A stretch of DNA of 64,000 nt from Anaerococcus sp. Marseille-P3625. GTDB taxonomy: Bacteria > Bacillota > Clostridia > Tissierellales > Peptoniphilaceae. Each line of letters begins with the position of its first letter. The stretch's first letter is position 1. The position numbers were made by a program, and so were the translations under genes. Positions 13,574 through 16,589 of the stretch are shown piece by piece. The DNA lies in assembly GCF_900232825.1 (NCBI RefSeq), contig NZ_OCTP01000010.1, forward strand, positions 620,001 through 684,000. The letters run 5' to 3'. The notes beneath the pieces are model-generated. The model was not told the origin of the DNA. It saw only the letters and a list, made by a program, of their open reading frames with translations, and ran no database searches.

Positions 13574-15754
13574 TCATCTAAAATATCCACCTTTCAAATA
13601 TGGAGCTATTTTTACTTTTTTATAAAAACTAATTTTTACTAATCCATCTTTTTGGCTATTATAAATTTTTACCCCTGATAAATTTTCTATAACTTCCTTG
13701 TGTGGATGTCCATATATATTATTTCTACCTGCAGATATTAGAGCTACTTTTGGCTTTACATTGGATAAAAAATATTTAGAAGTAGAAGATCTTGACCCAT
13801 GATGAGATACTTTTAATATATCGGCTCTTAAATCTAATTTATCTTCATATTCTTTTGGCAAATCTCCCAAAGTTAGTATCTTTTTTCCTTTTATATTAAT
13901 CATAAATCCTGTTGAATGGCTATTTTCTTCTCCTTCAATTCCTTGAAAAACGCATTTCATTGTCCCATTTTTAAGTTTTATTTCCTGGTTTTCTTTTATA
14001 ACTTTTGCCTTATATTTTTTGATTATTTTTTTATTTAATGGCCCTGTTATTAGACATTCAACTTTGAAATTGTCGTATAAAATCTTTAAATTTCCACTAT
14101 GATCTGAGTCTTCGTGAGAGATAAAAACTCCCTTTATTTTTTTTATTCCTAGTGATTTAAGATAAGGAACTAAAATTCTTTGACCTGAGTCATAATCATC
14201 GTATTTGGGACCACCTACATCAAATAAGTAATAATCACATCCATCATTTAACAAAAATGCATCTCCTTGACCAATATCTATCATAGAAAAGCTTACTTCA
14301 GGTTTTAGCAAATCTTTTATAGGACTTATGCTTACAAAAAGTAAATTTATTATAAGAAATTTTTTAAAAAAAGCCTTATTAGATTTTTTTATGTAGATTA
14401 GCGTTAAAACTAACAAATAAAAATATATGCAAATTAAAATGCTAGGATGGGCAAAGTCAATTGTTAGAAATTTTATTTTGTTTAATAGATAGCTAATATT
14501 TGTAATACTTAAAACAAGATAATTAAGTATTGTAAAAACTGGTTTTAGAAAAGCTTTCGCCAATGGATAGAGCAAAGTTATGCCAAAAATCAAATACATA
14601 GCTAGGGTAAAAATTGGAACTATCAAAAAGTTTGCCAAGATGCTTAATAGATTTATTTTACCAAAATAATAAATTGAAAATGGAAAAAGTGTAGCCTGAA
14701 TAGTAGCTGTAAATCCAAGATTTTCCATTATAAGCTTATCCTTAAAATACTTTTTAAATTTTGGATAGATTAAGTAAACTCCACTTGTTGCAACAAAAGA
14801 TAAAATAAAGCCAGAGTTTAATATAGCAAAGGGATTAACTAATAAAATTAGTGTAGCTGCTATTAGCAAAGCTTTGATTTTATCGAAAGGCTTCTTGTAC
14901 AAAAATCCTAAAAATCCTATCAAATTAACCAACAAAACTCTTATAACAGAAAATGGAAAAGCAATTAAATATCCATAAAATAAGCAGGTAGAAAGAGCAA
15001 AAATGTAAGCCTTTTTGTAATCTAAATTAAAAATATTAAAAATAAAAATAATAGATGCAAAAAGCAAATCGATATGAAGACCAGAAACTGCCAAAATATG
15101 AGATAGTCCCAGATCTCTAATATCGTTATTTTCCAGCAAATTTTCCCCTAAAATAACCGAAATTACAAAAGAGGATGATTTCTTGCTTAGATTTTTTTCA
15201 TATATATCGTGGATATAAGAATAAAATTTTCTCCTTAATTTTAATAAAAAATTAGAAGTTTCCCCTATTTTTTTAAATTCTTTTATATCAAGATTACTTG
15301 CTACATTTTTGGAAATCAGATAATTTCTATAATTGAAAAGATTTGGATTGGTATTTCTATTTGGAATATTAATATCGGCATCAACAAATAGTTTATCCCC
15401 TATTTCGAATTCATAATCAGAGAAAATGACCGATTTCTCCTTGATTTTTTTACCCTTTACTCTTACAAAATACCTATAAGAATCCTTTGTTTCTCTTTTT
15501 TGAAGAATTGTTACATTAGCCTTGATATTTTTGAAACCTTTTAGCTTATAAGAATTAAAGTTTAGAAGACTTAATGAAAATCCCAGACCAATGCCAAGGC
15601 TTATAAGTAAGTATTTCTTGTCAATAAAAAGTAAAATTATAGATATTACTAAGATAAATCCTAGTAAAACAAGCGGATTAAGATTTTCAAAATTAATGAA
15701 AATTCCAATTCCACTTACTAAAGAAATCAAAAATAAAAAAATAAACTTTCTCAT
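13574..15754 (-). CDS. comEC: ComEC/Rec2 DNA-uptake channel
   Basis: A 726-residue polytopic protein that moves single-stranded DNA across the membrane during transformation. Two to three N-terminal membrane segments are followed by an OB-like extracellular part (about residues 65-155). The Competence domain with many membrane segments comes next (GLSHILAVSGLHIDLLFAS near residue 222). A C-terminal metallo-beta-lactamase domain ends it, with MIDIGQGDAFLL and SHEDSDHSGNLKIL carrying the metal-binding residues. All three parts are present, so it appears intact. An extended -10 (TGATATAAT, minus strand 15772-15779) lies close upstream. No other com genes are in the window. Confidence 0.96.
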   Translation of the reverse strand: MRKFIFLFLISLVSGIGIFINFENLNPLVLLGFILVISIILLFIDKKYLLISLGIGLGFSLSLLNFNSYKLKGFKNIKANVTILQKRETKDSYRYFVRVKGKKIKEKSVIFSDYEFEIGDKLFVDADINIPNRNTNPNLFNYRNYLISKNVASNLDIKEFKKIGETSNFLLKLRRKFYSYIHDIYEKNLSKKSSSFVISVILGENLLENNDIRDLGLSHILAVSGLHIDLLFASIIFIFNIFNLDYKKAYIFALSTCLFYGYLIAFPFSVIRVLLVNLIGFLGFLYKKPFDKIKALLIAATLILLVNPFAILNSGFILSFVATSGVYLIYPKFKKYFKDKLIMENLGFTATIQATLFPFSIYYFGKINLLSILANFLIVPIFTLAMYLIFGITLLYPLAKAFLKPVFTILNYLVLSITNISYLLNKIKFLTIDFAHPSILICIYFYLLVLTLIYIKKSNKAFFKKFLIINLLFVSISPIKDLLKPEVSFSMIDIGQGDAFLLNDGCDYYLFDVGGPKYDDYDSGQRILVPYLKSLGIKKIKGVFISHEDSDHSGNLKILYDNFKVECLITGPLNKKIIKKYKAKVIKENQEIKLKNGTMKCVFQGIEGEENSHSTGFMINIKGKKILTLGDLPKEYEDKLDLRADILKVSHHGSRSSTSKYFLSNVKPKVALISAGRNNIYGHPHKEVIENLSGVKIYNSQKDGLVKISFYKKVKIAPYLKGGYFR

Positions 15755-15771
15755 GGCCTTTCCTCGGGTAT

Positions 15772-15779
15772 ATTATATC
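15772..15779 (-). promoter_or_regulatory. comEC extended -10 promoter
   Basis: TGATATAAT on the minus strand with no clear -35. It would give a short leader that contains the AGGAAAGG ribosome site. Confidence 0.5.
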
Positions 15780-15819
15780 ATAAGAATTTATTTAAAGATG
15801 AAATTTATAGGAGAGAAAA

Positions 15820-16446
15820 ATGCAAAAATTATATATGGACTACCCAGAAATTTCAAAAATAAAAGCAAATATAATCTCAAGACGCTATCTAGATGACAAA
15901 ACTCAAATAATCCTAGATAGGACAATTTTTATGCCAAATTCAAAAGAATTTTTAGCTGATAAGGGAACTATCTCTGCTATGGAAGTTTTAAATGTAGAAG
16001 AAAAAAAGGACAATATAATCCACACCATCCAAGGAAAGCCTCAAAAATCCGAAGTTTTTCTTGATCTTGATATGACAAACAGAAGAAAAAATCTCTCTTA
16101 TAACACCGCTTACATAATTTTTAAGCTAATTTTTGATTCTTTTTATAGGTCAAGCTCCATAAATCTAATAAGAAAAGAGGAAGATTTTTTCATTGAAGTA
16201 AATGATTTTTATGATGTTTTTGATGAAAAATTAATACTTGATCAAATAAATTTTCTAATAGGAGCTAATCTAAAAATTGAAAGCAAACAAGGAATTACAA
16301 AAATTGACCCTATTGGAGATGTGATCAATAATTTTATTTGCTTTGATTATACAGGAAAAGTTCGTGGACTTGTTTTTGAAAATATAGACGTAAACAAAAG
16401 TTCTCTTAAAATAAAAATAAAAGCTTGTGACGATATTCTAAAATGA
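15820..16446 (+). CDS. Degenerate AlaX / AlaRS-editing-domain homologue
   Basis: A 208-residue protein. Residues 30-51 (IILDRTIFMPN, then LADKGTI) match the start of the alanyl-tRNA editing fold, followed by IIHTIQG and a region RRKNLSYNTAYIIF. In AlaX and AlaRS this last stretch reads R...HTAxH and binds zinc; here it is N95-T-A-Y-I99, so both His are gone. The later CxxxH pair is C174-x3-T178, and the glycine-rich GGGQ loop is replaced by NSKEF. Three of four zinc ligands are therefore missing, and hydrolysis of mischarged tRNA is unlikely. It is divergent from comEC and has a clean AGGAGAG ribosome site and its own terminator. It may be a tRNA-binding pseudoenzyme. Confidence 0.72.
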   Translation: MQKLYMDYPEISKIKANIISRRYLDDKTQIILDRTIFMPNSKEFLADKGTISAMEVLNVEEKKDNIIHTIQGKPQKSEVFLDLDMTNRRKNLSYNTAYIIFKLIFDSFYRSSSINLIRKEEDFFIEVNDFYDVFDEKLILDQINFLIGANLKIESKQGITKIDPIGDVINNFICFDYTGKVRGLVFENIDVNKSSLKIKIKACDDILK

Positions 16447-16472
16447 CGGTTTGATGCCGTCATTTTTTAATT
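16442..16472 (+). terminator. Terminator of the AlaX-like gene
   Basis: A seven-base stem AATGACGG / CCGTCATT around TTTGATG, followed by TTTTTTAATTTT. The stem starts inside the stop codon. Confidence 0.88.
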
Positions 16473-16544: not shown

Positions 16545-16589
16545 ATGACAAAATTAAGAAATAGAAAATTCGGAGAAAAATGTAACTAA
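16545..16589 (+). CDS. Short leader peptide ahead of the ABC exporter
   Basis: A 14-codon reading frame, MTKLRNRKFGEKCN, with a good ribosome site (AAAGGAG, eight bases upstream) and just downstream of a consensus promoter. It is basic, with one Cys next to the end. Its stop is followed at once by a stable hairpin (16590-16620) and then the ABC genes. This is the layout of regulatory leader peptides such as BmrB of the Bacillus BmrCD exporter. A peptide substrate of the exporter is an alternative. It is too short for homology by eye. Confidence 0.6.
   Translation: MTKLRNRKFGEKCN

Follow-up and report, generated by a model that had tools for sequence, protein, structure and literature searches.

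Why should a bacterium keep an editing protein whose active site appears to have gone? The question is raised by a frame of 208 codons at 15820..16446 (forward strand) of the window, by which we mean the whole 64,000-nucleotide stretch of Anaerococcus sp. Marseille-P3625 DNA that was analysed. Its product resembles AlaX, a free-standing protein whose editing of Ser-tRNA-Ala has been described as redundant (PMC3158927).

Judged from its sequence, the frame is a real gene and a descendant of this alanyl-tRNA trans-editing family. It was recognised as an open reading frame and by profile matches, ends in a stop codon at 16444-16446, and is preceded by the ribosome-binding site AGGAGAG (15809..15815, forward strand). 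An intrinsic terminator of its own was predicted as a hairpin at 16440..16466 (forward strand), with a stability of -13.9 kcal/mol that was equalled by none of 200 shuffles. The initial annotation had described an intact gene with a good ribosome site and its own terminator, and in these points it was right.

Beyond the terminator, a 14-codon frame, MTKLRNRKFGEKCN, lies at 16545-16589 (forward strand) with a good ribosome site and is followed by the genes of an ABC exporter (16656 and 18331). A frame of 12-15 codons occurs in 11 of the 12 same gaps (the window, L098-L100, L104 and L106-L112, not L108), and we take the 14-codon frame to resemble the BmrB leader peptide of the B. subtilis BmrC/BmrD transporter.

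AlaX ancestry and loss of the zinc site

Profile comparisons show AlaX ancestry over the entire length of the protein. With hhalign, nine intact AlaX sequences matched a profile of 30 genus sequences at 99.7% (E 1.3e-26, 241 columns). In HMMER searches the genus profile covered both halves of the solved protein 3kew (E 6.5e-17) and the first part only of 9iuw (E 1.3e-9) and 2e1b (E 2.3e-9); a fourth row of the structure search was non-significant (E 3.3) and was set aside. The window protein alone matches the NCBIfam AlaXM model (NF040865) at E 2.3e-11 over residues 1-110, its score of 43.9 bits falling short of the curated cut-off of 300, and 28 of the 30 genus members match this model at E 0.001 or better. 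These results bear out the original proposal of an AlaX-like protein and confirm its N-terminal half as AlaX-like. The AlaRS model TIGR03683 gave a weak match to the window protein, and a Pfam search with it gave none, the cut-off for PF07973 (tRNA_SAD) being 24 bits. A PF07973 search of the organism's own genome returned AlaRS and ThrRS only. Pfam scans of the 30 members gave four families, each in a single member, which we read as chance; an anti-phage function was rejected, with no PADLOC match in any of the 30.

The zinc site of the window protein is a different matter, and here the initial annotation needs correction. It had counted three of four ligands as lost and had read the CxxxH site as C174-x3-T178. 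Three alignments (MAFFT with 97 sequences, HMMER against 3kew, and hhalign) instead agree on another register: N170 aligns with the zinc Cys, the second zinc His is matched by C174, and T178 falls on the Thr of a downstream T-G-E motif. The C174/T178 register is thereby ruled out, and the count of replaced ligands rises from three to four. The site N95-T-A-Y-I99 had been placed correctly, N95 and I99 occupying both His positions of HxxxH. The former zinc motifs thus correspond to codons 95-99 (N-T-A-Y-I, 16102..16116) and codons 170-174 (N-N-F-I-C, 16327..16341), both on the forward strand, and none of the four ligands survives in the residues N95, I99, N170 and C174. From these alignments the loss of the known zinc site is clear. 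The GGGQ loop had also been called absent, and this extends to the genus, where the Gln is found in 0 of 30 copies and the last Gly in three.

Some of the remaining protein has been kept. Seven residues (M1, Y5, P9, I36, R88, N91 and N170) are invariant in the 30 genus copies, in an alignment of true translations that included L016, L024 and L027, which have no start codon at the aligned end. R88 (codon 16081..16083, forward strand) is also present in 55 of 56 other zinc-less copies and in all nine intact AlaX sequences. Further positions that never vary in intact AlaX are largely retained by the genus copies, among them T178 (29/30) and the N144 and G203 positions (27/30 each), the window copy having C203 at the last of these. 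Across the 35 columns invariant in eight intact AlaX sequences (L062 left out), the genus copies keep the four ligand columns in 1 of 120 cells and the 31 non-ligand columns in 366 of 930 (39%). In the intact reference L061 the residues corresponding to N144 and N170 are separated by 47 positions, here by 26, indicating that part of the former substrate side has also been lost.

In short, the window protein is akin to AlaX-M and AlaX-L (NF040865; 3kew, 9iuw and 2e1b) in an editing domain that is homologous over its whole length, but differs from them in having no zinc ligand, no G-G-Q loop and no C-Ala domain, and in scoring under the curated cut-offs.

Retention across the genus

The profile found the gene in 30 of 31 genus genomes, the organism's own included. 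In the sole exception, G009, comEC was matched in part only, within a frame of 318 codons, and holA was not found in a search that had no positive control. The gene holA is normally essential. With holA unmatched and comEC partial, we rejected a true gene loss in G009 and judged a probable assembly gap to be the cause.

The relatives share the ligand loss: 29 of the 30 copies keep no ligand and one (L015) keeps one. As the gene is genus-wide in this form, a one-off broken copy was also rejected. The reading frame is intact in all 30 copies, a comparison in which L016, L024 and L027 had their first letter set to M. We see dN/dS values of 0.050-0.292 in all 28 genus pairs above 68% identity, pairs that are non-independent and include the window copy in none, its nearest relative being 56% identical. 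The frames and these ratios support the earlier view that this is not simple decay, and on this evidence the gene is retained under purifying selection in the genus. The genus sequences that hold the invariant residues share only 31-56% identity with the window protein. The latter has a pI of 6.0, in a genus range of 4.8 to 9.4 that shows no common basic character.

The synthetase itself belongs to the same domain family (TIGR03683, TIGR00344), but its editing domain retains both HxxxH and CxxxH, in all 48 genomes examined, whereas the window protein has neither. Proofreading therefore need not depend on the AlaX-like gene, and a role as backup for a damaged AlaRS is ruled out.

Ligand states and domain lengths in the wider family

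The genus profile matches 65 of 130 family genomes. The 97-sequence alignment holds nine intact AlaX sequences (six in the family, L061, L062, L068, L071, L134 and L138, and three outside it), the 30 genus copies and 56 other zinc-less copies, where 'zinc-less' denotes zero to two of four ligands by alignment. Two sequences were set aside: L160 is a fragment that lacks the ligand columns, and L077, which reads Q-H-C-H, is an additional copy in G017. Four family copies (L150, L154, L160 and L162) are split into two ORFs, and the larger pieces of L150, L154 and L162 were counted among the 56. Within this group of 56, 45 copies keep no ligand, ten keep only the last His, and one (L065) keeps two. 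Their Cys position is mostly Tyr (23), Ser (16) or Trp (5), and their first His position mostly Asn (31), Ile, Val or Leu.

At the order level, both HxxxH and CxxxH are intact in 16 of 16 AlaX loci (L252 read from the sequence), from 16 of the 19 genomes with a match (G049, G055 and G059 left out). Seven of these 16 intact genes outside the family are divergent from comEC, as is the window gene. An intact AlaX is therefore the most likely ancestral state, and the arrangement with comEC is older than the ligand loss.

We mapped ligand states on a quick tree built from AlaRS only (41 family genomes and seven outgroups, SH-aLRT support only), in which 10 of 45 inner branches are open and five rows have odd composition. 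Intact and zinc-less copies interleave, the intact g33/g45/g55 and g36 standing between genera that are zinc-less. With loss taken as irreversible and four outgroups set to intact, the full tree needs a minimum of six losses, and five, four or three when branches below 80, 90 or 95 are collapsed; free parsimony gives three changes between intact and zinc-less. The pseudo-AlaX thus appears to be a conserved, free-standing form that was derived repeatedly, through at least three to six losses if these are irreversible.

Of the 41 family genomes in the tree, nine carry no AlaX-like gene beside comEC, indicating that the function is dispensable in some lineages. A wider whole-genome profile search of 26 genomes without a comEC-side copy gave matches in 25, confined to AlaRS-length frames (801-905 codons) except that two genomes (G093 and G115) also hold a 374-386-codon frame of a different AlaX form, and no match at all in G092. 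On these results, relocation of the gene was rejected.

The window protein ends past the editing domain and does not include the C-Ala/DHHA1-like domain that is a feature of the long form. Short forms of about 203-253 aa are found in the genus, in the sister genus (g41) and in several other genera, and many other family copies have 370-634 aa. A long C-terminal part matching AlaRS models is present even in zinc-less L066 (TIGR00344, E 1.2e-18) and L090 (TIGR03683, E 6.1e-8). From the short forms, the editing fold seems to be the core that is kept.

Other variants were seen during these comparisons. Some genomes hold, away from this locus, a second AlaX-like form; all eight copies inspected (L077 and L244-L250) have Gln in place of the first zinc His (QxxxH) but an unaltered CxxxH. 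The zinc-less copies of g57 (L079, L086, L088, L133, L139, L140, L142, L147 and L155; 486-634 aa) carry a long, charged, low-complexity stretch of variable length after the editing domain. Short AlaX-like proteins L241-L243, from MAGs of Paceibacterota, an unnamed bacterium and Parcubacteria, retain HxxxH but carry NTEP instead of the G-G-Q loop; in L241 the zinc Cys is replaced by Asp.

The comEC neighbourhood

The divergent neighbour of the gene is comEC (13574..15754, reverse strand), which scores above the cut-off of TIGR00361. The two genes have in common a 65-bp intergenic region (15755..15819). The AlaX-like gene is divergent from comEC in all 30 genus copies and directly adjacent in 29; in the other genome, G003 (L026 1-1488), about 1.3 kb with a 130-codon ORF separates them. 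Inspection of 16 genus neighbourhoods revealed holA and comEC in every one. L102 alone lacks lepA and lepB (present in 15), and rpsT is matched in all but L099, L102, L104 and L109 (12 of 16). On the other flank, 11 loci have a pair of ABC exporter genes, broken into pieces in L112, and five have leuS, identified by eye.

We also sampled 37 family loci (including L077, the second copy in G017), three order loci and 60 further regions upstream of comEC, with L159 and L144 cut by contig ends at 134 and 1,469 bases. The comEC gene itself was found in 126 of 130 family genomes. The AlaX-like gene has it as a divergent neighbour at 35 of the 40 family and order loci, and at 33 of the 37 family loci; the family exceptions are L062 (at a contig start), L077, L080 and L082. 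Among the 60 further regions, 27 hold an AlaX-like ORF, divergent from comEC. Intact AlaX genes outside the family also have this neighbour, as described above, which implies that the adjacency predates the ligand loss. In the two g29 loci L080 and L082 the AlaX-like gene lies beside another protein common to both that is not a comEC match, and in G072 comEC is about 10 kb from the AlaX-like gene.

The comEC start could be placed in 20 of the 30 genus loci, giving intergenic distances of 43-244 bp. A symmetric, nearly palindromic 20-bp element, ATTATANCATATGNTATAAT, occurs at one place per genome in 16 of 31 genus genomes; it matches on both strands and always lies, by coordinates, between comEC and the AlaX-like gene, and a reversed control gave no match. 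The consensus of an extended -10 box is TGnTATAAT. Against this consensus, the element can be read as a pair of extended -10 boxes placed back to back, which would mean that common promoters alone may hold the gene pair together. The full element is absent from the window's own genome, where only the comEC half is present, as an extended -10 box TGATATAAT at 15772..15780 (reverse strand) read from the sequence. Where the double element occurs, transcription of comEC and of the AlaX-like gene might be mutually exclusive.

A proposed binding role and its alternatives

An AlaX-like protein that is kept intact and under selection across a genus probably has a job that needs no zinc. We tentatively propose that the AlaX of an old comEC-divergent locus was turned in place into a pseudoenzyme that acts by binding, a reading to which we give slightly less than even weight. 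With its zinc site lost, the protein would be unable to deacylate Ser- or Gly-tRNA-Ala by the established mechanism, and AlaRS, with its editing site intact, would do the proofreading instead. Binding would be achieved through the retained editing-domain fold, which is predicted from homology, and the target would most likely be tRNA or a component of the tRNA-Ala/AlaRS system.

The nearest precedent that we found is the fused AlaX-like domain of Plasmodium cytosolic TrpRS. The four ligand positions of that domain are occupied by Asp, Ser, Asn and Val, and both tRNA binding and aminoacylation depend on the N-terminal region that contains it (PMC3680381). The two proteins have each lost the whole set of four ligands, with Asn at the Cys position in either case, and non-catalytic tRNA binding, proposed there, is what we would suggest for the window protein; the Plasmodium domain is, however, fused to a eukaryotic synthetase, whereas the window gene is free-standing and bacterial. 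The same paper notes that the N-terminal extension of Cryptosporidium TrpRS was found to be dispensable for enzymatic activity (PMC3680381). Our search of open-licence papers found none on a free-standing zinc-less bacterial AlaX and no link between AlaX and comEC. The initial statement that no role is described for such a form thus holds, within those papers, for the free-standing bacterial protein, but not for the form fused to a synthetase.

Of the roles considered, binding within the (t)RNA system would be the most likely one for the pseudo-AlaX, and we favour it with modest confidence over a ComEC-linked role, a slow relic and new catalysis. In its favour we count the homology, the ligand loss, the residues that persist, the dN/dS values, the intact AlaRS and the Plasmodium precedent. 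Against it we count the short genus form without C-Ala, a domain that carries much of the tRNA binding in AlaRS and AlaX (PMC3158927), as well as the N144-N170 spacing, the pI spread, the dispensability in Cryptosporidium and the nine tree genomes without a copy.

The constancy of the comEC neighbour could instead point to a partner or regulator of DNA uptake, produced from the promoter region shared with comEC, binding DNA or RNA, and acting on ComEC expression or on incoming strands. The divergence in the whole genus, in most family loci and in 27 further regions speaks for this, as does the single symmetric element in about half of the genus genomes, and comEC stays while the gene on the other side varies (an ABC pair or, by eye, leuS, thrB or eno). 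Nevertheless, we consider the idea unlikely: intact AlaX has the same neighbour outside the family, the back-to-back -10 boxes could by themselves keep the pair together, the window's genome has only the comEC half of the element, and family searches (Pfam, NCBIfam and PADLOC) gave no DNA-binding domain. It is similarly improbable that the gene is a slowly dying relic under weak constraint, from which the zinc site goes first, then C-Ala and the linker, and finally the gene. Such a course would fit the nine tree genomes and the wider set of 26 without a copy at comEC, the C-Ala domain missing, by length, in several genera, and the four split family copies, but it sits poorly with the intact genus frames, the low dN/dS of every close pair, residues that stay invariant among divergent sequences, and a gene that has its own ribosome site and terminator.

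The invariance of N170, R88 and N91 in all 30 genus copies, which is tighter than an inactive pocket would seem to require, raises the thought of a new zinc-independent enzyme that uses the conserved polar residues R88, N91, N170 and T178 of the AlaX pocket. Yet the Cys and first His positions vary among the 56 other zinc-less copies, leaving no shared catalytic set, and intact AlaX also conserves R88, T178, N144 and G203, which may therefore be structural; we regard new catalysis as quite unlikely. Least probable of all, and very unlikely in our estimate, is a regulatory subunit of AlaRS that pairs with it through the editing domain, for which we can cite the common fold family and the intact editing motifs of AlaRS.

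Implications

The window gene appears to encode a genuine, conserved pseudo-AlaX that is part of a wider, repeated conversion, mostly at one locus. An active site that was erased repeatedly, in a gene that was kept under selection, hints at a second use of the fold for which zinc is not required. The family offers a graded natural series for testing that use, with four, two, one or no ligands, with and without C-Ala. A bolder version, which we hold to be decidedly improbable, is that comEC-linked AlaX was converted at least three times independently to a non-catalytic DNA-uptake protein, co-expressed with comEC from the symmetric promoter. If true, this would be a parallel transition from enzyme to pseudoenzyme with living intermediates such as L065, which keeps two of four ligands. 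Gene names such as 'alanyl-tRNA editing protein', given by similarity, may be wrong in this family.
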